A stretch of 64,000 nt of DNA from Brevundimonas sp. PAMC22021 (GTDB taxonomy: Bacteria > Pseudomonadota > Alphaproteobacteria > Caulobacterales > Caulobacteraceae): the NCBI RefSeq assembly GCF_019443405.1, contig NZ_CP080376.1:2604001-2668000 (forward strand), read 5' to 3'. The notes beneath the pieces were generated by a model. It was not told the origin of the DNA, did not search any database, and saw only the letters and a program-made list of their open reading frames with translations. Every line of letters starts with the position of its first letter. Within the stretch, counting starts at the first letter, position 1. The position numbers and the translations under genes were made by a program. Below are positions 6,764 to 43,021 of this stretch, piece by piece.

Positions 6764-9700
6764 CTAGCCCTGTTGCGCGGCCGAGACCGCCAGGTCGCGG
6801 ATGGTGGCGTTGGCGATGGTCAGCTTGGCGAAGGTCCAGCCTGAGCCTGAGCCCTCGATCTCGTCGACCGAGGCGCGCACGCCCTCGACCACGGCCTGGC
6901 GGGCGCCGATCCAGGCGTCCACCGCCGCCTCCGCCGCCTCTTCGCTGACGCCCACCGACGGATCGGGGGCGCGGGCCACGGCGCGGGTCAGGGTGCGCTG
7001 TTCGCCCATCAGGTCCTCGATCAGCCGGCGCACGGCCAGCCGGTCAAAGTGATCGGCGGACGGGATCGATCCCGCCGCCGCACGCAGCCGGTCGAAGTCG
7101 AAGGCGGCGCCCACCTGGTGATACAGACGCGCCATGCCGGCCACCGGCCAGCCGGTTTCTGCCGCCAGGTCGCCGATGTCGGACGCCGCCACCAGGGGAC
7201 GCAGGATGGCGACGCCTTGGGTCAGCGCCTCGGGCGCGCCGTGGTCGGCGAAGCGACGCACCCGCTCCTCCAGCCGCGCCTGTTCGAACTGCGACAGCAC
7301 CGCGGGCCCTTCGGCGTAGATGGCCCGGGCGACCGGACTGTAGGTGTCCACCAGAGCCTGAACGCCCTGCCCCGCCTTGGCGCGCCTGGCCATCCAGAAG
7401 GTCTGGCGACGCAGCACCACCGCGATCTCGTTGTACAGGGCGACCTGAGCTTCGGCCGAGATCTTGTGATCCAGGGCCGAGACCGCGTCCCAGGCCTCGT
7501 CCAGGCGGAAGATGCGGCGCGCCGCCTCGAACGCCACCGTCAGCGTGCCCGTGTCGCATTCGGCCGAGCCGCGCAGCCGGTCCGGGAAGGTCGGGCCGCA
7601 CATGTTGACGATCTCGTTCGCCATCACCGTGGCGATGATCTCGCGCCGCAGGCGGTGGCTCTTCATTTCCGGCTCGAACCGCGCCAGCGCCTCGGGGAAG
7701 TAGCGGACCAGCACCTCCTCGAAGGCCGGATCCTCGGGCGCCGAAGACGCCACGATGTCGTCGGACAGCTCCAGCTTGCCATAGGCTGTCAGCACCGCGA
7801 TCTCCGGCCGGCTGAGCGGGGTGGCCGTGGCCATCATCTCGCGCATGCGGGCGTCGTTGGGCAGGCCCTCGACCTTGCGATCCAGCTTTCCGCGCGCGGC
7901 CAGCGTCTGCATGAACCGCTGCTGGGCGTCCAAGGCCTTCGCGCCTTCCGCCTGTTGCAGCGTCAGCGCCAGGGTCTGGTCGTAGTTGTGGGCCAGCACC
8001 TTCAGGCCCACCTCCTCGGTCATGGAGGCCAGCAAGTCGGTGCGCTGGTCCGCCGGCAGCGTGCCGTTGGTGACCGCCGATCCGACCAGGATCTTGATGT
8101 TGACCTCGTGGTCGGAGGTGTCCACGCCCGCCGAGTTGTCGATGGCGTCGGTGTTGATGCGGCCGCCGGCGTAGCCAAAGGCGATGCGCCCGGCCTGGGT
8201 GAAGCCGAGGTTGGCCCCCTCGCCCACCACCTTGACCCGCAACTCGTCGGCGTTGATGCGCAGCGGATCGGTCGACTTGTCGCCGACCTGGGCGTCGGTT
8301 TCGGCCGCCGATTTCACATAGGTGCCGATGCCGCCGAGATACAGCAGCTCGGCCGGGGCCTTCAGGATGGCGCGGATCAGGCTGATCGGATCGAGGCTGT
8401 CCTCTGCGATGTCCAGCGCCGCCTTGATCTGGGGCGACAGCGGGATCGACTTGGCGCCGCGCGAGAACACGCCGCCGCCTTCGGAGATCAGGCTCTTGTC
8501 GTAGTCCTGCCAGGACGAGCGCGGCAGGTCGAACAGCCGCTTTCTTTCGGTCCAGCCGGTCACATGATCCGGGTTCGGATCGATAAAGATGTCGCGGTGG
8601 TCAAAGGCTGCGACCAGGCGCGTGGCCTTGGACAGAAGCGCGCCGTTGCCGAACACGTCGCCCGACATGTCGCCCACGCCGACCATGGTGAAGGGCTCAG
8701 ACTGGATGTCCTTGCCCATCTCGCGGAAGTGGCGCTTGACCGCTTCCCACGCGCCGCGCGCGGTGATGCCCATGGCCTTGTGGTCGTAGCCGACCGAGCC
8801 GCCCGAGGCGAAGGCGTCGCCCAGCCAGAAACCGTAGGCGGCCGAGACGCCATTGGCGATGTCGGAGAAGGTGGCCGTGCCCTTGTCGGCCGCAACCACC
8901 AGATAGGGATCGTCCCCCTCCCAGGCGATCACGTTCGACGGGCGGACCACGCCGCCGTCCGCGCCGATGTTGTCGGTGATGTCCAAGAGGCCCGACAGGA
9001 AGGTGCGATAGGCGCGGATCGCCTCGCCTTGGATCGCCTCGCGATCGCCGGTGCGCGGAAGCTGCTTGGGATAGAAGCCGCCCTTGGAGCCGACCGGCAC
9101 GATCACCGCATTCTTGACCTGCTGCGCCTTGACCAGGCCCAGCACCTCGGTGCGGAAGTCGTCGCGGCGGTCGGACCAGCGCAGGCCTCCCCGCGCCACG
9201 GGACCAAAGCGCAGGTGCACGCCCTCGACATGCGGCGCCCAGACAAAGATCTCACGATACGGCTTGGGCAGCGGCAGATCGTCCAGCTCGCGCGAGGCGA
9301 TCTTGATGGAGATGTGCGGCTTGGGCGCGCCGTCGGCGTCGGTTTGATAGAAGTTGGTGCGCTTGACCGCCCCGATCAGGGCGGCGAGGCGGCGCAGCGC
9401 CCGGTCGTGATCCAGGCTCTTCACCGCCTGCAGCTGGCCGGCGATGGCAGCTTCCTGCTCGGCCACGGCGGCCTGGCGGCCGGCCGCGTCGCCCTCGCCG
9501 GCGAACTTGGCCTCCCACAGCTTCAGCAAGGCGCGCGACACGTCCGGATATTCCCGTAACGCCTCTTCCTGCACCGCCTGGGACGGGTCGAGGCCCGTCT
9601 GCTGGCGATAGCGCGCAAGCGTGCGGATCAGCGCCGCCTCGCGCCAGGACACGCCCAGCTCGACCACCAGTCGGTTGAAGCCGTCGCTTTCGGTCAGGCC

Positions 9701-11610
9701 GGTCCAGGCGGCGGCGAACGCCTGCTCGAACGGGCAGCGGACGGCCTCGAACACCAGCGCCTCGCCGCGCGGGTCCTCCAGCAGGAACTCGTGAACGTGG
9801 ATCTCGGCGTCGCCCGCCGGCCGGATCGGATAGCCGTATTCCTCAAGCGTCTTCAGCCCCATGTCCGCCAGGATCGGCAGGACGTCCGACAGCGGCACCG
9901 CCGCCCCCGGCGATAGAGCTTGAAGCGGAACTGCAGCGGACTGTCGTCGGCATGACGGAAGGCGCGAACGGCCAGCGACGCCTCGCCCTCGCCCACCCGG
10001 GCCAGTGCTTCCAGGTCGATCGCAGCCTCGGCGGCGTCATACCGGTCGCGATAGGCGGCGCCGAAGGCGCGGGCCCAGCGCGCGCTGAGCGGCCCGACCT
10101 CCACCTCCTGCACGCCGTCGCGGCGCAGCGCCGTCTCGAACCGCTCGACCCAGCCGCGCCCCGCCTCGGTCACGTCGGCTTCGACCTGCTGCATGTCCGG
10201 CGTCGGATGGTCGCCGGGCGTCACGCCGATGATGTAGTGGACGCGCACCAGCGGCGCTTCGGACAGCTGCGGGTACCAGGCCGAGACCCGACCGCCCCAG
10301 GCCCGCGCCAGGATCTGGCCGATGCGCTGGCGCACCGCTGCGTCGAACCGCTCGCGCGGAATGAAGCACAGCACCGAGACGAAGCGGTCGAACGGGTCCG
10401 GCCGGGTGAAGATGCGGATACGCGGCCGATCGTAGAGGTGCAGCACGCCCAGCGCGATCGACAGCAGCTCGTCCTCGGTGATCTGGAACAGCTCGTCGCG
10501 GGGGTAATTGTCCAGGATGTTGCGCAGCCGCTTTTCGTTGTGGCTGCCCGGCGCCTTGTCGGCGCGTGCGAGGACGTTGGCGACCTTGCGCCGGATCAGC
10601 GGCACCTCGGCGGCGACGTGGTCATAGGCCTCGGCGGTGAACAGGCCGACAAAGCGCGTCTCGCCCGAGGCGCGGCCGTCCGGGCCGTACTTCTTGATGC
10701 CGATGTAGTCCATGTAGGCGCGGCGGTGCACACGCGAGCGCAGATTGGCCTTGGCTACCGTGACCGGTTCGGACAGGTCCATCTGGCGGCGCATCTGGCG
10801 CGTCAGCACCGCCGGCTCGTTGCCCCGCCGCAGCACGCGCCGTTCGGCGTCACGCAGCACGCCCAAACCCTCGCCCGACTGGCTCAGCGGCGCCTCGGCT
10901 TCGTAGTCGCCGTCCACCGCGCGGGGATAGTCGTAGTCGCGCGCGCCCAGGAAGACAAAGTGGTCGCTCTTGAGCCAACGCAGAAAGGCGACGTTCTCGG
11001 CGACGACCGCCGCTTCGGCGACCGGAGCGCCCGCTTCGAGCTCGGCGATGGAGCGGCGCATCAGATCCAGCATGGCGGGATGGTCGGCCACAGCCTGGTG
11101 CACGTCCGCCAGCGTCGCGGCGAGACCCTCGCCCAGGCTGTCGCGACGCTCCTGCGTCACCGGATCGAGGACCAGCAGGATCACCGACAGACGGCGATCC
11201 TCGCCCATCTCCACCACTGGGTGGAACAGGGCGCGCACCGACACGCCGGCTTCGGCCAGCTCGCCCAATACGCTGTCGACCAGGAAAGGCGCGTCCGCTT
11301 GAACGATGCGCACCAGGTCATAGCCGACGGCGCGTCCCTCCGCGCCCGTCAGCGGCCCTACCGTGATGGTCGGCGCGGCCTGCGGCGCCTGCGCCTCTGC
11401 GGCCCGCCAGCCCTCGACCAGAAGGCAGGCGAAATCCTCACTGTCGATCTGCGGCGTTTCGTCGGCGGAGTAGTCCTCGAACGCCTGGGCCAGAAAGGCG
11501 CGCACGGCCCCAGGGTTCGCGCCGCCGCCGCCGAGGCGGGAAAACGCCTGACTGACGGCGTCCAGATCAGCAGGCGCGGAGGGCTTCGAACGCAGGTCGA
11601 TGGCGGACAT
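6764..11610 (-). pseudogene. gdhZ: NAD-specific glutamate dehydrogenase, frameshifted
   Basis: Large (180 kDa class) NAD-GDH, about 1615 residues if whole, converting glutamate to 2-oxoglutarate and ammonium. The reading frame is split in two: the N-terminal part runs from the ATG at 11610 and ends in a wrong-frame tail near 9853, and the catalytic part (with VPVGSKGGFYPK) resumes from about 9898 to 6764. At the seam, RFKLYRRG should continue into VPLSDVLPILADMGLK; one extra G in the run of five (plus strand 9904-9908) restores this. Everything else looks intact, so this is either a sequencing error or a very recent mutation. In Caulobacter crescentus GdhZ also binds FtsZ and helps coordinate division with metabolism. 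Confidence 0.88.
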
Positions 11611-11735
11611 GAAGAACGGTCTCGCAAGGCGCGGCTGGGCCGCGGAGGGCGCGGCGTACCCGGTCGTCCTGTGACGTCGGAACGCCGCCGTATTCGACTG
11701 ACTAGGCCCGATCCGAAGCGGCGAAAACCCCCAAA

Positions 11736-11768
11736 GAGAAAACCGGGCCCGCCTTTCGGCGGACCCGG
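11736..11768 (-). terminator. Rho-independent terminator of the beta-barrel gene
   Basis: Hairpin 11743-11768 with an 11-base stem (one mismatch) and a GAAA-type loop on the minus strand, followed in the minus direction by TTTTCTCTTTGG. It lies about 55 bases past the stop codon of the outer-membrane gene and before the start of the glutamate dehydrogenase, so it separates the two. Confidence 0.8.
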
Positions 11769-11822
11769 CCTGGATTATCGACGTTTAGTCGAGAAGACGA
11801 CCAAAACCGGCCGTGATCATGC

Positions 11823-12674
11823 CTAGAAGCGGTAGTTCATGCCGAGGCGAACCGCGTGCAGACCGAACTTGCTGTTGGAGCGGATGATGTCCGTGCCCGC
11901 CGTGTTCGGAGCCAGCACGAAAGGGTTGGTGATCGGCGCCGAACCGCGCGTCACGCTGACCACATGGTCGCCCGCGTCCAGCGAGGTGTAGAGGTATTCG
12001 CCGGTCACCGACAGGTTGGGCGCGAGCGCATATTCCACGCCGCCGCCCCATTGGTAGCCGTCCGCGTCCTGGTCATCGACCGTCTCGGAGAAGCTGTTGG
12101 CGGTGTTGGAGCTGAAGAAGCGGTTCTTGACGCGAGCCCAGGCGCCGCCGCCGGTCGCATAGACCAGGGCCGGTCCGACCGCATAGCCGAGCCGCACGCG
12201 CGCCGCCGCCAGCTGCTCCAGCTCGCGGGTGAACACATAGTTGGCGGGCGTGGTGGAGAAGCCGGTCACCGAATCCTCGGCCGCGCCGGCGCTGTATTCG
12301 CCCACGCCGCCGACCACGAAGTTGCCGAACTGCCAGTCATAGCCGCCGCGCACGCCGAACTCGTAGCCGGTCTTGTCGTCCGAGCAACCGTCGGCGGCCA
12401 CGGCGGTGTTGGCCGCGCCGTCGCAGAAGCCGGGGCTGAAGGCGTCGGCGCCGGTTCCGGCGAGGGTGACGGTGTCGCCGAAGTTTCCGTCCAGGTTTCG
12501 GTCGAAGCGCAGGCGCTCGTCGCCCTGATCATTGGCCTGGTTGCCGCCGATAAAGACGCCGACATAGGGGCCGGTCCAGTCGGGGGTCGTCTGCGCCATG
12601 GCGGGCGCGGCCAAGCCGGCGGTCAAAAGGGCGAGCGCGGCCGCCGTCGTGCGAGGGGTCATGGTGGTGGTCAT
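11823..12674 (-). CDS. Outer-membrane beta-barrel protein (OmpA/Omp25-like)
   Basis: About 283 residues. A signal peptide (TTAAALALLTAGLAAPAMAQ) is followed by TPDWTGPYVGVFIGGNQAND, the usual opening of alphaproteobacterial opacity/Omp25-like barrels. Alternating aromatic strands follow, ending in GLHAVRLGMNYRF with a C-terminal Phe, the signal for the BAM complex. There is no peptidoglycan-binding OmpA domain. Two ATGs are possible (12674 and 12662); neither has a strong ribosome site. It has its own terminator, and its long leader contains a hairpin at 12805-12833. Confidence 0.85.
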   Translation of the reverse strand: MTTTMTPRTTAAALALLTAGLAAPAMAQTTPDWTGPYVGVFIGGNQANDQGDERLRFDRNLDGNFGDTVTLAGTGADAFSPGFCDGAANTAVAADGCSDDKTGYEFGVRGGYDWQFGNFVVGGVGEYSAGAAEDSVTGFSTTPANYVFTRELEQLAAARVRLGYAVGPALVYATGGGAWARVKNRFFSSNTANSFSETVDDQDADGYQWGGGVEYALAPNLSVTGEYLYTSLDAGDHVVSVTRGSAPITNPFVLAPNTAGTDIIRSNSKFGLHAVRLGMNYRF

Positions 12675-13063
12675 TTGATCGATCGCCGCGAACGGCTGGA
12701 GGTTGGCGACAGCCCGTCCCGCCCGATCAACGACGACCCCCAACGGCCGTTCCCTCCTGCAGAGAGGCTGCGACAAACCGTGGCATTGAGGGCACAAACA
12801 ACAAGGCCGCCGGACCGGGGGAGTCCGACGGCCTGCTTTGGCCGGCGCCGAGGGGGAGGGAGGTGGCACCGGTCGGGCGTCGCGAACAGGAGGGGATGGG
12901 CCCGCGACGATGGGCGGTAGATAGGCCCCTCGGTCGGAGCCGCAAGGGGCTGTCCGATCTATTTGCGAATCTGTCGCGCGGCAGGCGGTCGCACCGCCTG
13001 AAGGCGTCGCGCGCGAGGGCTCTGGGCCTTGCAAGGCGAAGGGGGCGAGCGCATTTCCCCGCC
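12675..13063. other. Intergenic region between divergent genes
   Basis: 389 bases without a gene between the divergent outer-membrane gene and the nfu gene. It must hold the promoters of both. It contains the hairpin at 12805-12833 listed separately. I do not see convincing -35/-10 pairs or a small coding sequence in the rest. The part at 12940-13060 is GC-rich, and open frames crossing it show no family resemblance. Confidence 0.6.
12805..12833 (-). terminator. Terminator-like hairpin in the leader of the barrel gene
   Basis: GGCCGCCGGA and TCCGACGGCC pair with one mismatch around a nine-base loop. On the minus strand the hairpin is followed by TTGTTGTTTG. It lies about 130 bases before the start codon of the outer-membrane gene on the same strand, a place where a terminator would act as an attenuator or end a short leader RNA. 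No upstream gene on that strand needs a terminator here. Confidence 0.5.
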
Positions 13064-31079: not shown

Positions 31080-31672
31080 GCCGGCAACGCTCCGACGTGG
31101 CGAAGCTGTTTCAGCACCGCCCACAGAGGCAGGCCCAGCACGGTGAAATAGTCGCCGTCGATCCGCTCGAACAGCTGGGCGCCCAGCCCCTCCAGCCGAT
31201 AGGCGCCGACGCAGGACAGCAGCGCCTTGCCCTCGGCCTGGAGGTAGGCGCCCAGGAAGGCGTCGGAGAACGGCCGCACCTGCATGGTCGCGGTCTCGAC
31301 GCCCGACCAGACCACCTCGCCGCCGCGCGCCAGCGCCGCGCCCGAATGGAGCGCATGCGAGCGACCGCGCATGGCCGACAATCGCGCTTTCGCCTCTTCA
31401 AGCGACCGGGCCTTGGAGACCAGGCCGCCGTCGAAGGCCAGCGTCTGGTCGCCGCCCAGCACCCAGGCGTCCGGTTGCAGACGCGACACCGCCACCGCCT
31501 TGGCCTTTGCCAACTCCACGGCGAGAGCGGCGGCGTCGATCACGCCGAGTTCGGCCTTGAGCGCCGCCTCATCGACCGGCGCGACCTCGACGCGGAACAG
31601 GACGCCCGCGCCCTGCAGCATCTCGCGCCGGGCGGCGCTGCCCGACGCCAGGATCAGCTCGGGGGCGCTCAC
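31076..31672 (-). CDS. maf: Maf-family nucleotide pyrophosphatase
   Basis: 198 residues. Maf/YhdE/YceF family house-cleaning enzyme that hydrolyses non-canonical or modified NTPs. Opening block LILASGSAARREMLQGAGV, the catalytic VLGGDQTLAFDG and the SYRLEG-like C-terminal region (VGAYRLEGLGAQLFERIDGD). The GTG start overlaps the ppsR stop codon (GTGA). Its place next to the origin operon is conserved in Caulobacter. Confidence 0.94.
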   Translation of the reverse strand: MSAPELILASGSAARREMLQGAGVLFRVEVAPVDEAALKAELGVIDAAALAVELAKAKAVAVSRLQPDAWVLGGDQTLAFDGGLVSKARSLEEAKARLSAMRGRSHALHSGAALARGGEVVWSGVETATMQVRPFSDAFLGAYLQAEGKALLSCVGAYRLEGLGAQLFERIDGDYFTVLGLPLWAVLKQLRHVGALPA

Positions 31673-32562
31673 CAGCTGGCGCCCACGCGCTGGGTGCGAC
31701 GCTCGTTCAGCAGGTTGACGATGGCGGCGGCGGTTTCCTCGACCGAGCGGCGGGTCACGTCGATGGTCGGCCAGCCGCGTCGCTCAAAGGCGCGGCGCGC
31801 CTTGATGGTCTCGTCGCGTACGGCGTCCTGGTCGGTATAGGTCGAGCCCTGGTTGGCGTTCAGGTTGTCGATGCGGTTTCGGCGGATCTGCACCAGGCGA
31901 TCGGGCGAGACCGTCAGACCGATGACCAGCGGGTTCTTCAAACCCGTCAGCCGCTCGCCGTCCTCCTGGCCCGGCACCAGCGGCACATTGGCGGCCCGGA
32001 TGCCGCGGTGCGCCAGATAGATGCAGGTCGGCGTCTTGGAGGTGCGGCTGACCCCGCACAGCACCACGTCCGCGCCCTCCAGCTGTTCGGACGTGCCCTG
32101 GCCGTCGTCATAGGCCATGGCGAAATCCAGCGCCGCGATGCGGTTGAAATAGTCGTGGTCCAGCGCGTGCTGGGCCCCGACCCGCTTTGACAGCGAGGCT
32201 CCCAGATACCGCGACAGGGCGCCGACCAGCGGATCGAGCGCGCCGATCTGGGGCATGTCCAGACGCCTGCAGCCTTCCTCCAGCTGCTCGCGCAGATCGC
32301 GGTCCACCAGGGTGTGGAGAACCACGCCCGGCGCGGTCTCGATCTCTTCCAGCACCCGATCCAGCTGCTTGGACGAACGAACCAGGGCGTAGATGTGCTC
32401 GATCGGAATAACCCCGTCGAAGCGGGCCGTGACCGCCTTGGCCATGGCGTTCAGCGTCTCGCCGGTCGAGTCCGACACAAGGTGGACGTGGAAATAGGTG
32501 GCCAGCCGAAGCGGCGCCGCCGTTCTGCCGGGACCTCTGCCGGGACTTGTAACTGGGCTCAT
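31669..32562 (-). CDS. ppsR: Pyruvate phosphate dikinase / PEP synthase regulatory protein
   Basis: 297 residues (DUF299 family). Bifunctional ADP- or ATP-dependent Thr kinase and Pi-dependent phosphorylase that switches PPDK or PEP synthase off and on. Begins with FHVHLVSDSTGETLNAMAKA and contains the P-loop-like GVSRTSKTPTCIYLAHRG. The ATG at 32562 has GAGG at a good distance; an upstream ATG at 32574 is possible. It is the first gene of the operon leaving the origin and corresponds to the gene flanking Cori on that side in Caulobacter. Confidence 0.93.
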   Translation of the reverse strand: MSPVTSPGRGPGRTAAPLRLATYFHVHLVSDSTGETLNAMAKAVTARFDGVIPIEHIYALVRSSKQLDRVLEEIETAPGVVLHTLVDRDLREQLEEGCRRLDMPQIGALDPLVGALSRYLGASLSKRVGAQHALDHDYFNRIAALDFAMAYDDGQGTSEQLEGADVVLCGVSRTSKTPTCIYLAHRGIRAANVPLVPGQEDGERLTGLKNPLVIGLTVSPDRLVQIRRNRIDNLNANQGSTYTDQDAVRDETIKARRAFERRGWPTIDVTRRSVEETAAAIVNLLNERRTQRVGASW

Positions 32563-32588
32563 GGCGGGCCTCATCTGGCTTGATCGAC

Positions 32589-32597
32589 TGTGGACAT
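32589..32597 (-). promoter_or_regulatory. DnaA-box-like site
   Basis: Minus strand ATGTCCACA, seven of nine matches to TTATCCACA. It lies 27 bases upstream of the ppsR start. Confidence 0.4.
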
Positions 32598-32736
32598 CCG
32601 GTGGGCGCCCGAGCTCGAATTTCCGTCCGCATCCTATAGCGCCGGCCGCGAGCTAGAGCGAGCGGGGGACCGTGAGGATGACTCCGATCCCGCGCGGTCA
32701 AACTATCCAGCGCGGGACAGCCGGATCGATCGTACC

Positions 32737-32745
32737 TGTGGATTT
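32737..32745 (-). promoter_or_regulatory. DnaA box (best candidate)
   Basis: Minus strand AAATCCACA; the core ATCCACA is intact and is the same core as in the Caulobacter G-box TGATCCACA. It lies 14 bases before the degenerate CtrA box. Confidence 0.55.
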
Positions 32746-32758
32746 TCTTACCAAAGGG

Positions 32759-32772
32759 TTAACGCCAGTTAG
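32759..32772. promoter_or_regulatory. Degenerate CtrA site
   Basis: TTAACGCCAGTTAG, that is TTAA-N6-TTAG. One half is perfect and the second has one mismatch; spacing is one base shorter than the standard N7. Confidence 0.4.
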
Positions 32773-32810
32773 CTATCTTCCATGCGTCAAGGCCCGCAAA
32801 GCCGCCCATC

Positions 32811-32825
32811 TTAAGGGTTCATTAA
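32811..32825. promoter_or_regulatory. CtrA binding site (perfect TTAA-N7-TTAA)
   Basis: TTAAGGGTTCATTAA. Exact match to the CtrA consensus. In Caulobacter, CtrA bound in Cori blocks replication starts in swarmer cells and represses a hemE promoter. Confidence 0.8.
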
Positions 32826-32881
32826 GGATCGGCGAGCGGCGCCGGCCGCCTCGGGAGGCCTCTGGATGTTCCGGCAGGCTG

Positions 32882-32890
32882 CGTGGATAT
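32882..32890 (-). promoter_or_regulatory. DnaA-box-like site
   Basis: Minus strand ATATCCACG, seven of nine matches to TTATCCACA with the TATCCAC core kept. Confidence 0.4.
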
Positions 32891-32956
32891 CCGCTTTTGT
32901 TCTCGGGATGACTGCGGATTCATCCTCGTCATTCCATGGCCCTACCTGCTTCCACG

Positions 32957-32990
32957 ATTCTTCTAATTCTTATTTTGATTAGGGATTGAG
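32957..32990. other. AT-rich segment, candidate unwinding element
   Basis: The most AT-rich stretch of the intergenic region. It contains CTAAT-N10-ATTAG (32963-32982) as an inverted repeat and a WATCAA half of an IHF-type site on the minus strand. It lies 33 bases before the hemE start. Confidence 0.5.
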
Positions 32991-33022
32991 CGCGGGGGGT
33001 GGGGACCGTAAGCCTTCAGACC

Positions 33023-34072
33023 ATGACCACGCCTTTGCTGACCACGCCTCTGCTCATCAGGGCCTTGCAAGGCGAGACGCTGGACCGGCCGCCGGTCTGG
33101 TTCATGCGTCAGGCGGGACGCTATCTGCCGGAATACCGCGCCCTGCGCAGCCAGGCGCCGGACTTCATCGCCTTTTGCCTGAACCCGGAGATGGCGGCCG
33201 AGGCGACTCTGCAGCCGATGCGGCGGTTCGGCTTCGACGCCGCCATCATCTTCGCCGACATCCTGCTGATCCCTCGCGCCCTGGGCCAGGACGTGTGGTT
33301 TGAGGCGGGGGAGGGGCCAAGGCTTGGCCGCATGCCCGAGCCGGATCAGATGCGTCCGCTCGCCGCCTCCGCCGGAGAGCATCTGTCGGCGGTCGGCGGC
33401 TCGCTCAGCCGGGTGCGGGCGGCGTTGGAGCCCGAGCGGGCGCTGATCGGCTTTTGCGGCGCGCCCTGGACCGTGGCGACCTATATGCTGGACGGCGAGG
33501 CCCGCACCATCGGCAAGGGCGAGCGGACGCAGGCGCGAACCTATGCCTATGCCGATCCCCGGCGGGTCGAGGCGACGCTGGAGGTGCTGGTCGAAGCCAG
33601 CGCCCATTATCTGAAGATGCAGGCCGACGCCGGCGCACAGGTTCTCAAGATTTTCGAAAGCTGGGCGGAAGGGTTGCCCGACGACCTGTTCGAGACCTTG
33701 GTGCTGCGGCCGCATCAGGCGCTGGTGCGGCGCGTTCGGGAGCTGGGCGTCACGGCCCCGCTGATCGGCTTCCCGCGCGGCTCGGCGGCCTTGGCCGAGC
33801 GTTACGCCCAGGAGGTCGCGGTGGACGCGGTGGCGCTGGACACCGCCTGTCCGCTCGAGGTCGGTCGCCGCGTCCAGGCGATCAAGCCGATCCAGGGCGC
33901 GCTCGATCCGCTGCTGCTGCGCGCCGGCGGCGAGGCGCTGGATCGTCGCGTCGATCAGCTGATGGAGGCCTGGGGGCAAGGGCCGTGGATCTTCAACCTG
34001 GGGCACGGCATCCTACCGGACGTGCCGATCGCCCATGTGGAGCGGGTGCTGACGCGGATCGGCGCCCAATGA
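33023..34072 (+). CDS. hemE: Uroporphyrinogen decarboxylase
   Basis: 349 residues. Removes four carboxyl groups from uroporphyrinogen III to give coproporphyrinogen III in haem synthesis. Signature RPPVWFMRQAGRYLPEYR near residue 20 and FCGAPWTVATYMLDG. The ATG at 33023 is chosen over a GTG at 32999. The gene flanks the origin, as in Caulobacter, where its promoters lie inside Cori. The stop codon overlaps the hemH start (ATGA). Confidence 0.96.
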   Translation: MTTPLLTTPLLIRALQGETLDRPPVWFMRQAGRYLPEYRALRSQAPDFIAFCLNPEMAAEATLQPMRRFGFDAAIIFADILLIPRALGQDVWFEAGEGPRLGRMPEPDQMRPLAASAGEHLSAVGGSLSRVRAALEPERALIGFCGAPWTVATYMLDGEARTIGKGERTQARTYAYADPRRVEATLEVLVEASAHYLKMQADAGAQVLKIFESWAEGLPDDLFETLVLRPHQALVRRVRELGVTAPLIGFPRGSAALAERYAQEVAVDAVALDTACPLEVGRRVQAIKPIQGALDPLLLRAGGEALDRRVDQLMEAWGQGPWIFNLGHGILPDVPIAHVERVLTRIGAQ

Positions 34073-37259: not shown

Positions 37260-37275
37260 TGTTTCACGTGGAACG
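37260..37275. promoter_or_regulatory. parS site between rho and mnmE
   Basis: TGTTTCACGTGGAACG. 15 of 16 matches to TGTTYCACGTGRAACA, in non-coding DNA 20 bases after the rho stop codon, so no coding constraint explains it. Confidence 0.8.
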
Positions 37276-38738: not shown

Positions 38739-38754
38739 TGTTCCACGTGAAACC
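38739..38754. promoter_or_regulatory. parS site between mnmE and mnmG
   Basis: TGTTCCACGTGAAACC. 15 of 16 matches to the consensus, in non-coding DNA just after the mnmE stop. Confidence 0.8.
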
Positions 38755-40696: not shown

Positions 40697-41317
40697 ATGA
40701 ACGCGAGCCAGTTCGCTCAAGCCGCCGACGCCACGCCGGATCAGATGGCCGATCTGGAGGCGTTCCGAGACCGCCTGGAACAGGTCAATGCGGTGATGAA
40801 CCTGATCGGTCCGGACACCCTGCCAGACTTCTGGAACCGCCACGCCTATGACAGCGCGCAACTGCTGGGCCATGCACCGGACGCACGCACCTGGGCCGAT
40901 CTCGGCGCCGGGGCTGGCTTTCCGGGGCTGGTTCTGTCGATCCTGCTGAAAGGGAGGGAAGGGGCGCACGTCTGGCTGATCGACAGCCTCGGCAAGCGGT
41001 GCCGCTTCCTTCAGGAGGTGGTGGATTATCTCGCGCTGCCCGCCACCGTGATCAATGGGCGGGCCGAGGCGCAGACGCTTTCGGTGGATATTATCACCGC
41101 GCGCGCCGTCGCTCCGCTCGACAAGTTGCTCGGTTATGCACAGCCATACTTCGAGCGCGGGGCGGAGGGTCTTTTCCTGAAGGGCGAAAAGGCCGAAACC
41201 GAAGTGGCGGCCGCGCGCGCGGCTTGGCGTTTCGATGTGTCCCTGTCGACCTCCGAAAGCGATCCACGTGGCCGCATCGTCCATGTCCGGAGTCTTCGTC
41301 GTGCCCGCTCAGCGTAA
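40697..41317 (+). CDS. rsmG: 16S rRNA (guanine527-N7)-methyltransferase RsmG
   Basis: 206 residues. SAM-dependent methyltransferase acting on G527 of 16S rRNA. Motif I is ADLGAGAGFPGLVLSILL, followed by VWLIDSLGKRCRFLQEV; FWNRHAYDSAQL is the N-terminal family block. The ParA start codon lies inside its last 35 bases. In gene order mnmE-mnmG-rsmG-parA-parB it is the classic origin-proximal member, once named gidB. Confidence 0.95.
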   Translation: MNASQFAQAADATPDQMADLEAFRDRLEQVNAVMNLIGPDTLPDFWNRHAYDSAQLLGHAPDARTWADLGAGAGFPGLVLSILLKGREGAHVWLIDSLGKRCRFLQEVVDYLALPATVINGRAEAQTLSVDIITARAVAPLDKLLGYAQPYFERGAEGLFLKGEKAETEVAAARAAWRFDVSLSTSESDPRGRIVHVRSLRRARSA

Positions 41318-42113
41318 GCCCGCCCGAGTTCTCGCCATTTCCAACCAAAAGGGCGGCGTCGGCAAGACCACCACCGCCATCAACCTGGGCACCGCTCTGG
41401 CCGCCATCGGCGAGAAGGTACTGATCGTCGACATGGATCCGCAGGGCAATGCCTCCACGGGGCTTGGTGTTCCACGTGAAACACGGCGAGTGACGATCTA
41501 CGATGTGGTGGTGGATGGCCGGTCGATCCAGGATGCGGCCGTGGAAACGCTGGTGCCGGGGTTGGCCATCGTTCCCGCTGATGCGGACATGTCGGGCGTC
41601 GAGATCGAGCTCAGCCAAGCCGACCGACGGTCCTACCGGTTGCGGGACGCCTTGCGCGCGCATGACTTGGGCATGACGCCGTATGACTATGTGCTGATCG
41701 ACTGCCCGCCGTCTTTGAACCTTTTGACGCTGAACGCCATGGCGGCAGCCGACGCGGTGCTGGTGCCGCTGCAGTGCGAGTTCTTTGCGCTGGAGGGTCT
41801 CAGCCAGCTGATGCGCACGGTGGACATGGTGCGGCAGAGCCTCAATCCTGGCCTTGAAATCCAGGGGTTGGTGCTGACCATGTACGACCGGCGCAGCAGC
41901 CTGTCGGGTCAGGTGGCCAACGACGTTCGCGCCCACTTCGGCGACAAGGTCTATGACAGCGTCATTCCCCGCAACGTGCGGGTGGCCGAGGCGCCTTCGT
42001 TCGGCAAGCCGGCGCTGATCTATGATCTGAAATGCACCGGCAGCCAGGCCTATCTCAAGCTGGCGCGCGAACTGGTGCAGCGCGAACGCAAGCGACTGAA
42101 GCACGCAGCCTGA
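41283..42113 (+). CDS. parA: Chromosome partition ATPase ParA
   Basis: 276 residues. Deviant Walker A NQKGGVGKTTTAINLGTALA, Walker A' VDMDPQGNASTGLG and Walker B DYVLIDCPPSLNLLTLNA. ParA-ATP binds DNA nonspecifically and forms the gradient along which ParB-parS is pulled. The ATG at 41283 overlaps rsmG by 35 bases; a GTG at 41301 is an alternative. It contains a perfect parS at 41468-41483 in its own coding region. Followed after 17 bases by parB. Confidence 0.96.
   Translation: MSGVFVVPAQRKPARVLAISNQKGGVGKTTTAINLGTALAAIGEKVLIVDMDPQGNASTGLGVPRETRRVTIYDVVVDGRSIQDAAVETLVPGLAIVPADADMSGVEIELSQADRRSYRLRDALRAHDLGMTPYDYVLIDCPPSLNLLTLNAMAAADAVLVPLQCEFFALEGLSQLMRTVDMVRQSLNPGLEIQGLVLTMYDRRSSLSGQVANDVRAHFGDKVYDSVIPRNVRVAEAPSFGKPALIYDLKCTGSQAYLKLARELVQRERKRLKHAA
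41468..41483. promoter_or_regulatory. Perfect parS site inside parA
   Basis: TGTTCCACGTGAAACA. 16 of 16 matches. It lies in codons for VPRET, which are not part of a catalytic motif. Confidence 0.88.
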
Positions 42114-42130
42114 AGCGGACGGACAAAGAC

Positions 42131-43021
42131 GTGGCGGAACGACAAAGAGGACTGGGGCGAGGGTTGTCGGCCCTGATGGGCGAGGCGGCGACCGAGGCCC
42201 CGATCGCGGCCGGCGCGCCTGCACCCGCCGGCGTGCAGCGTGTGCCGATCGAAAGCCTGAAGCCCAACCCGGATCAGCCGCGCAAGCTGTTCTCCCGCTC
42301 GGACATGGAGGAGCTCGCCGCCTCCATCCGCGACAAGGGGGTGCTGCAGCCGATCCTGGTGCGCAGCCAGCCGGACGAGCCGAGCGTGTGGCAGATCATT
42401 GCCGGCGAACGCCGCTGGCGCGCGTCCCAGGTCGCCCGCCTGACCGAAGTGCCGATCGTCGTGCGCGAAATGGACGACGTCGAAGTGTTCGAAGTCGCCA
42501 TCATCGAGAATGTTCAGCGCGCCGACCTCAACCCGCTGGAAGAGGCCAACGCCTATGGCCTGCTGATCGAACGCCATGGCCGCACCCAGGACGAGATCGC
42601 CGGAATCGTCGGCAAGAGCCGCAGCCACGTCGCCAACACCCTGCGGCTGCTGCAGCTGCCGATGGGGGTGCTGAACCATGTGATCGACGGCAAGCTGACC
42701 GCCGGTCACGCCCGCGCCCTGATCACTGCGCCCGATCCGCAGGCCCTGGCTGAACAGGTCATCCGCGAAGGCATGAACGTGCGCCAGACCGAGGCGCTGG
42801 CGCGTCGCGCGGCCGAAGGTCCGCCTCAGCCCAAGCCGACTTCGAAAGGTGCGTCGGGAAGCGGCCGCAACGAGGATATCGCGGCGCTGGAGCAGGATCT
42901 GCTGGACGTGCTCGGGCTCAAGGTTTCCATCGGCTATCGCGATGGTGCGGGCGAGGTGGTGGTGAAATACGCCTCCCTCGAACAGCTCGACGACATCTGC
43001 CGCAGATTGATGCAGGCCTGA
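42131..43021 (+). CDS. parB: Chromosome partition protein ParB (CTPase)
   Basis: 296 residues. N-terminal RGLGRGLSALMG box for ParA activation, CTP-binding ParB/Srx domain with GERRWRASQVA and ENVQRADLNPLEEANAY, HTH with TQDEIAGIVGKSRSHVANTL, and a C-terminal dimerisation domain. It loads at parS as a CTP-dependent clamp and spreads. Starts with GTG, 17 bases after parA. All five parS sites listed would be its binding sites. Confidence 0.96.
   Translation: MAERQRGLGRGLSALMGEAATEAPIAAGAPAPAGVQRVPIESLKPNPDQPRKLFSRSDMEELAASIRDKGVLQPILVRSQPDEPSVWQIIAGERRWRASQVARLTEVPIVVREMDDVEVFEVAIIENVQRADLNPLEEANAYGLLIERHGRTQDEIAGIVGKSRSHVANTLRLLQLPMGVLNHVIDGKLTAGHARALITAPDPQALAEQVIREGMNVRQTEALARRAAEGPPQPKPTSKGASGSGRNEDIAALEQDLLDVLGLKVSIGYRDGAGEVVVKYASLEQLDDICRRLMQA

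Follow-up and report, generated by a model that had tools for sequence, protein, structure and literature searches.

The Cori of Caulobacter crescentus is the textbook example of a replication origin on which a cell-cycle regulator sits. CtrA excludes DnaA at Cori, an activity described as mattering most under stress, and the weakening of all five CtrA sites of Cori is reported to perturb the laboratory cell cycle only mildly (PMC4468827). The location of the origin and its control by CtrA are already known in Caulobacter, and a CtrA-free origin has been reported in Sinorhizobium meliloti (PMC4433202). The locus analyzed here belongs to a Brevundimonas genome of 2,915,592 bp in a single contig, and the window, i.e., the whole stretch of 64,000 nucleotides under analysis, corresponds to positions 2,604,001–2,668,000 of that genome. 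A gene-free region of 460 bases beside hemE (32563..33022) had been proposed to be the chromosomal origin. The region between the two genes was indeed found to be gene-free, but the gap proper extends over 32575–33022, with the ATG of ppsR on the complement at 32574 and the probable ATG of hemE at 33023 as its edges. The gap and its neighbors are as follows:

31669..32574, minus strand: ppsR-type regulator (COG1806/DUF299), left boundary; NCBIfam NF003742, 320.6 bits at a cut-off of 225
32575..33022, no strand: origin region (ppsR-hemE gap), Cori counterpart by neighborhood and strand bias; gene-free, AT-richest 460 bp
32950..32989, no strand: AT-rich element, 30% GC, kept in relatives
33023..34072, plus strand: hemE, right boundary; TIGR01464, 358.2 bits; ATG at 33023 as the probable start

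Among all 460-bp stretches of the window, the gap is the richest in AT. The AT-rich end before hemE described in the original prediction is present, the 40-mer of lowest GC content in the gap (30%) being located at 32950; this element is probably an unwinding element and/or the promoter region of hemE. The hemE/COG1806 (ppsR) flanks and the AT-rich stretch of a Cori-type origin were thus both found. The nearest matches to hemE were from B. albigilva (88%) and a Brevundimonas MAG (87%).

Strand bias was evaluated over ∼30% of the chromosome, comprising 40 stretches of 20 kb and the window, using GC skew and the orientation of GGGNAGGG, which we take to be a KOPS-type motif. When the gap was taken as the origin and 1.205 Mb as the terminus, the GGGNAGGG copies of the sampled 30% were oriented 86 to 16 on the right arm, and the left arm gave 28 to 95. 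The best origin split by GGGNAGGG was at 2.55–2.62 Mb, with a score of 143, and that by GC skew at 2.655–2.69 Mb, with 18,529; an origin placed at 2.635 Mb scored 137 and 18,389, respectively. The two best splits flank the gap (2.637 Mb), and neither contains it. Both measures placed the terminus at 1.175–1.24 Mb, the point opposite the gap being 1.179 Mb. On the scale of the chromosome, the skew check proposed for the origin pointed to the right region, the best splits bracketing the gap, but the local minimum is 20–25 kb to the left. In a continuous 165-kb stretch, the turning point of GGGNAGGG was observed at 2,611–2,617 kb, i.e., 20–25 kb left of the gap (2,636.6–2,637.0 kb), and a simple two-state model of the local strand bias excluded the gap by >2 log units. 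GC skew within the 64-kb window by itself was uninformative. In window coordinates, the local turning point corresponds to 7365–12853 (genome 2,611,365–2,616,853), and the GC-skew minimum at genome position 2,615,419 falls within it. Rearrangement can displace skew.

The partitioning genes and sites lie to the right of hemE:

37260..37275, no strand: parS-like site, 2 mismatches
38739..38754, no strand: parS-like site, 2 mismatches
41468..41483, no strand: parS-like site, 1 mismatch
41235..42113, plus strand: parA (ParA/MinD-type ATPase), start not fixed; the family scores shown are all below their cut-offs, and the name rests on its place as well
42032..43021, plus strand: parB, start not fixed; TIGR00180 above cut-off

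The parS-like sites adjoin rsmG, parA, and parB; the sites are 4–9 kb from hemE, and together with parAB they are located about 4–10 kb from the gap, a proximity expected of a Cori-type origin. A parS-like cluster ∼4–10 kb from hemE was found in all eight genomes searched, with extra copies 16–324 kb off in five of them (distances calculated manually). The dnaA gene of the present genome is located at G000:C1:194676-195158 (194.7 kb), ∼473 kb from the hemE origin. This distance and the displaced skew minimum would be expected if the gap were a mere CtrA-regulated promoter of hemE or ppsR, with initiation taking place near the skew minimum 20–25 kb to the left or near dnaA. However, no rival AT-rich gap comparable to the present one was found at window 7–14 kb, and parABS adjoins hemE. 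Of 28 single-contig Brevundimonas genomes, 27 had a dnaA–hemE distance of 137 kb or more (calculated manually, with rounded genome lengths for some) and G050 one of ∼21 kb, and dnaA is therefore no origin marker in this genus. A role of the gap as a promoter only is thus very improbable. In 13 of these single-contig genomes, dnaA is placed at most 1.4 kb from the start of the contig. The position of dnaA should be treated with caution as a poor guide to the origin in Brevundimonas. The identity of the gap as the origin, as originally put forward, is supported by chromosome-wide strand bias, parABS, neighborhood, and AT-richness, and within the limits of skew, the origin is very probably located at this gap.

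The CtrA sites of the gap are two in number, and both align with the corresponding boxes of relatives:

32748..32762, plus strand: CtrA box I, TTACCAAAGGGTTAA, 7 of the 8 defining bases
32811..32825, plus strand: CtrA box II, TTAAGGGTTCATTAA, perfect

The perfect box and the second, degenerate site of the original prediction are both present, with box I 63 bp upstream of box II. The perfect pattern TTAAN7TTAA occurs four times in the whole genome, box II being one of the four, and the reversed pattern used as a control does not occur. On dinucleotide shuffling of 32575–32998, 23 of 17,814 sequences contained a perfect site, and 22 of 17,814 contained at least two sites with no more than one mismatch. 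CtrA sites, GANTC sites, and AT-richness exceed chance expectation in the gap. The genome also harbors a full-length CtrA gene (G000:1906709) with 85% identity to the C. crescentus query. With one perfect box and one 7/8 box, the gap carries the CtrA boxes of a Cori-type origin, the count being two and not five as in C. crescentus; five boxes are a feature of C. crescentus, four of which are kept in freshwater Caulobacter according to PMC4468827, and are therefore not required for a Cori-type origin. A perfect CtrA-type site, TTAAGTCAAGATTAA, was also observed at L254:2196-2210 (G000:C1:62695-62709), upstream of an ABC-transporter-like gene, and was letter-identical in several Brevundimonas genomes among the matches listed.

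For comparison across the genus, 131 genomes were considered, of which 125 ppsR-hemE gaps, the present one included, were kept; four genomes without a hemE match, G068 with a fragmented hemE, and L243 (G092), which showed no ppsR on a 501-base piece, were left out. The gaps of the relatives end at the start of the hemE alignment and may therefore contain a little coding sequence. At least one box with ≤1 mismatch was found in 104 of the 125 origins (84 with at least two and 20 with a single one), and none in 21. Perfect boxes were absent from 55 origins, including the 21 box-free ones, whereas 60 origins had one and 10 had two. Outside the box-free clade described below, a box pair at a spacing of 60–65 bp was present in 74 of 106 Brevundimonas origins, and the commonest spacing over all box pairs was 64 bp (41 pairs). 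In the nearest clade, the places of boxes I and II are mostly occupied by CTAAYGRRRGGTTAA and TTAAGGTTTCRTTAG with one mismatch each, the second being perfect in a few; box I of the nearest relatives is normally imperfect, mostly CTAA...GGTTAA. The first comparison covered 81 sequences, 20 of which were dropped for want of a ppsR match. Relatives with a hemE 60–75% identical (Caulobacter, Phenylobacterium, and others; L013–L032 except L017) had at least one box in 19 of 19 gaps, with 45 sites against 1.0 expected and varied arrangements, while in more distant gaps boxes were found in 10 of 24 (16 sites vs. 3.6 expected). One to three boxes with ≤1 mismatch were counted in 18 of these 19 Caulobacter-type relatives and six in one, and by this measure a count of two is not low.

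It had been proposed that the present origin has one strong CtrA site in place of the five in Caulobacter, and that its control by CtrA may be simplified or moved to other sites. The gap does hold a single perfect box, with only four in the genome, and in Hyphomonas neptunium a CtrA-bound site is reported next to the origin (PMC7200025). However, the 7/8 box lies at the distance typical of the genus, the pair recurs in 74 of 106 origins whereas two perfect boxes occur in only 10 of 125, and a count of two is within the 1 to 3 boxes of 18 of 19 Caulobacter-type relatives. Of that proposal, the single perfect box stands; a simplified or shifted control is unlikely in this species, and it is in another clade that loss of the boxes has occurred. 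The reading of a single site was rejected, as the upstream box belongs to a spaced pair. The present species has the two-box layout typical of the genus, with the second box perfect and with no species-specific simplification.

A further alternative is that the boxes are relics, i.e., CtrA is irrelevant at the present origin, and box I is decaying, at the beginning of a loss like that of the diminuta clade. In favor of this, box I is degenerate, flanking motifs of relatives are missing here, and on the tree the loss of boxes takes three changes, one of them spanning 19 species. But box II is perfect, which is not so of any box in 55 of the 125 origins (21 of them box-free), and the nearest relatives normally have an imperfect box I as well, with the spacing kept; decay of the pair is hence judged improbable.

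The remaining motifs of the gap are as follows:

32589..32597, minus strand: DnaA-like box ATGTCCACA, 2 mismatches
32604..32609, no strand: GGCGCC copy, matched in the alignment by a conserved copy of relatives
32680..32684, no strand: GANTC (CcrM-type) site
32737..32745, minus strand: DnaA-like box AAATCCACA, 2 mismatches, directly before CtrA box I
32829..32837, plus strand: slot of the DnaA-like box (mostly TTGTCCACC) beside CtrA box II in near relatives, missing here
32838..32843, no strand: GGCGCC copy
32882..32890, minus strand: DnaA-like box ATATCCACG, 2 mismatches, within GTGGATATCCGCTTTTGTTC
32917..32921, no strand: GANTC site
32956..32960, no strand: GANTC site
33000..33005, minus strand: W-box-like TCCCCA, only copy in the gap

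The three DnaA-like boxes of the original prediction are present (32589, 32737, and 32882), but each has two mismatches, and together they are not clearly beyond chance. Where a Cori-type origin would carry moderate G-boxes and weak W-boxes, the gap holds five DnaA-like 9-mers, all with two mismatches and none better, and one TCCCCA; five matches are more than its own shuffles give, of which 1.4% reached that number, but 142 of 3,177 overlapping windows of the 64-kb stretch had at least five matches of that quality. The DnaA-like boxes of the gap are hence not clearly beyond chance for the window, and their use as proof of an origin was rejected because weak matches of this kind are common across it. 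The position of AAATCCACA is occupied by TTTTCCACA in most near relatives, the CTGTGGA core of ATGTCCACA is enriched at Brevundimonas origins, and the GTGGATATCCGCTTTTGTTC surrounding ATATCCACG is kept across the nearest clade. In the aligned origins, no DnaA-like box was found directly after CtrA box II here, unlike in the nearest relatives. The one W-box-like motif that had been noted was confirmed as TCCCCA, which occurs at least once in 75 of the 125 genus origins, whereas TCCCCG is absent from the gap; zero copies of it were found in only four of the 125 origins, the present one included. It is in its DnaA motifs that the present origin is unusual, lacking TCCCCG and the TTGTCCACC-type box beside box II. 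The three GANTC sites likewise proved correct (32680, 32917, and 32956; 0.42 expected per 460 bp nearby).

Nineteen of the 21 box-free origins form one clade, which includes B. diminuta (SH-aLRT of 99 in a quick tree built on 933 alignment columns of the coding flanks, in which the clade rows L212 and L230 have a deviant composition). The fewest changes needed for box loss on this tree were 3, compared with a mean of 19.7 on shuffling, and a single change covers the 19 species. The gaps of the clade are L154, L156–L158, L162, L164, L166, L171, L176, L180, L189, L193, L194, L199, L201, L202, L212, L221, and L230; the named locus of B. diminuta 3F5N (L033) is without a box. No CtrA box was found in the coding flanks of the 19 clade origins either. 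Of the 21 box-free genomes, 20 were found to encode CtrA itself (18 of 19 in the clade), the exception being G053, which is 66% complete, and perfect CtrA-type sites occur elsewhere in all 21. Over the 19 clade genomes, the perfect pattern TTAAN7TTAA was counted 120 times vs. 79 for the reversed pattern, with four of the 19 not above the control, and this excess is hence only modest. In G037, a member of the clade, the GGGNAGGG switch at 2.54–2.68 Mb brackets hemE (2.563 Mb); GC skew was less clean, with its best split at 20–150 kb.

The clade origins are rich in GGCGCC, with 6–11 copies each (mean of 8.5, 19 of 19) compared with a mean of 2.1 (0–7) in the other 106 origins; the G037 sample, in which single windows reach 6, gave a background of ∼1.2 per 500 bp, and mononucleotide shuffles gave 0.4. 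All 19 clade origins thus show an excess of what is, by prediction, a methyltransferase-type target (PMC7987155, Table 1). Sampled 500-bp windows contained up to 6 copies in both the present genome and G037, and the non-clade origin L151 has 7, and the lower end of the clade range is therefore not unique. Triples of GGCGCC within a short distance numbered 48–59 per genome in four diminuta-clade genomes, 20 in the present genome, and 4 in G100. The view of GGCGCC as a repeat exclusive to origins had to be qualified, as it is frequent elsewhere in these genomes. Copies flanked by A/T numbered 3–10 per origin in all 19, whereas the sample of G037 gave 0.27 per 500 bp; their densest cluster in 400 kb of G037 was 5 in 500 bp, inside an open reading frame. 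What is distinctive is the count of GGCGCC across all 19 clade origins, with A/T-flanked copies. The extended form, wider than the 6-mer, reads A/T A/T C GGCGCC C, i.e., AACGGCGCCCAG, and was found in forward orientation (≤1 mismatch) in 19 of 19 clade origins and 34 of the 106 others; in 25 of these 34, its beginning coincides with the final two bases of a CtrA box. A helical phasing was not supported for the array (Rayleigh of about 0.2). The separate box losses in L163 and L209 are without an array (3 and 2 GGCGCC, respectively) and give no support for a link between array and loss. GANTC sites averaged 5.95 per origin in the clade vs. 2.35 in the others, with only 2–3 in the sub-branch L212/L221/L230.

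GGCGCC is listed as the predicted m5C target of the orphan methyltransferase Bresu_0174, with a homolog in C. crescentus, in Table 1 of PMC7987155, and its methylation was not detected by the sequencing of that study. Relatives ∼61–70% identical to the DNA cytosine-5 methyltransferase predicted in the present genome were found in 8 clade genomes and 3 others among those examined. In the clade genomes G033, G055, G010, G053, G034, G115, G122, and G057, the methyltransferase examined was only a 43–46% relative of it. Four genomes without any match to a C5-methyltransferase had 0–2 GGCGCC at the origin, which is only suggestive since three of the four are close kin. The methyltransferase of the present genome (L316, G000:C1:2578151-2579212) is located ∼58 kb from the origin; the GGCGCC prediction concerns Bresu_0174 and may not apply to it. 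It could be speculated that the diminuta clade swapped the control of its origin by CtrA for the GGCGCC array (AACGGCGCCCAG) with, in most members, extra GANTC sites, the array being read by an orphan cytosine-5 methyltransferase and/or a binding protein. This would amount to a Dam/SeqA-like control arisen separately in alphaproteobacteria, with CtrA and the array-binding factor competing at the overlap before the boxes were lost, and with the present species keeping the CtrA branch. As a whole, such an exchange is considered decidedly doubtful.

Taken together, the ppsR-hemE gap is read as the site at which this Brevundimonas species starts to replicate its chromosome, a positional ortholog of Cori, with the CtrA pair acting as a brake on DnaA, a reading to which a probability of roughly 0.78 is assigned. 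The pair of sites, its conservation, and its spacing are observed, and binding by CtrA and DnaA, repression, and timing at the present origin are proposed by analogy. DnaA would assemble on weak boxes, one of which lies directly before CtrA box I here and in most near relatives, and would then open the AT-rich stretch before hemE. Phosphorylated CtrA may occupy both CtrA boxes, which are separated by about six helical turns (63 bp here and most often 64), and would keep DnaA away from the origin in non-replicating cells, following the C. crescentus model.

The genus Brevundimonas offers natural variants of this system, with a two-box pair in most species and a clade of 19 species without boxes though CtrA remains, and the role of CtrA at the origin and its replacement could hence be tested by comparing close relatives. 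In the literature searched, neither the box pair of Brevundimonas nor its loss was found described, nor was any origin with a GGCGCC array, and an earlier description is possible. The origin of E. coli, oriC, carries an array of GATC sites acted on by Dam and SeqA. The GGCGCC array of the diminuta clade resembles it as a functional analogy only, in that there are many short methyltransferase-type motifs per origin. The origin of S. meliloti is described as having no CtrA motifs and no binding by CtrA (PMC4433202), which is a precedent for the diminuta clade only; S. meliloti belongs to another order, and the present origin, unlike that of S. meliloti, retains CtrA boxes. In H. neptunium, a different genus, ChIP-seq has revealed a CtrA site adjacent to the origin (PMC7200025). 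Compared with Cori, the present origin differs in having two CtrA boxes at 63 bp where Cori has five, in the distance of 473 kb to dnaA, and in having three parS-like sites vs. one main site. It is similar to Cori, as far as the latter is described in the sources cited, in the hemE/COG1806 flanks, the CtrA boxes beside weak DnaA or, here, DnaA-like boxes, and the AT-rich region, as well as in a parS near the origin, which in C. crescentus is about 8 kb from Cori (PMC4468827, PMC1914354, PMC6399470).
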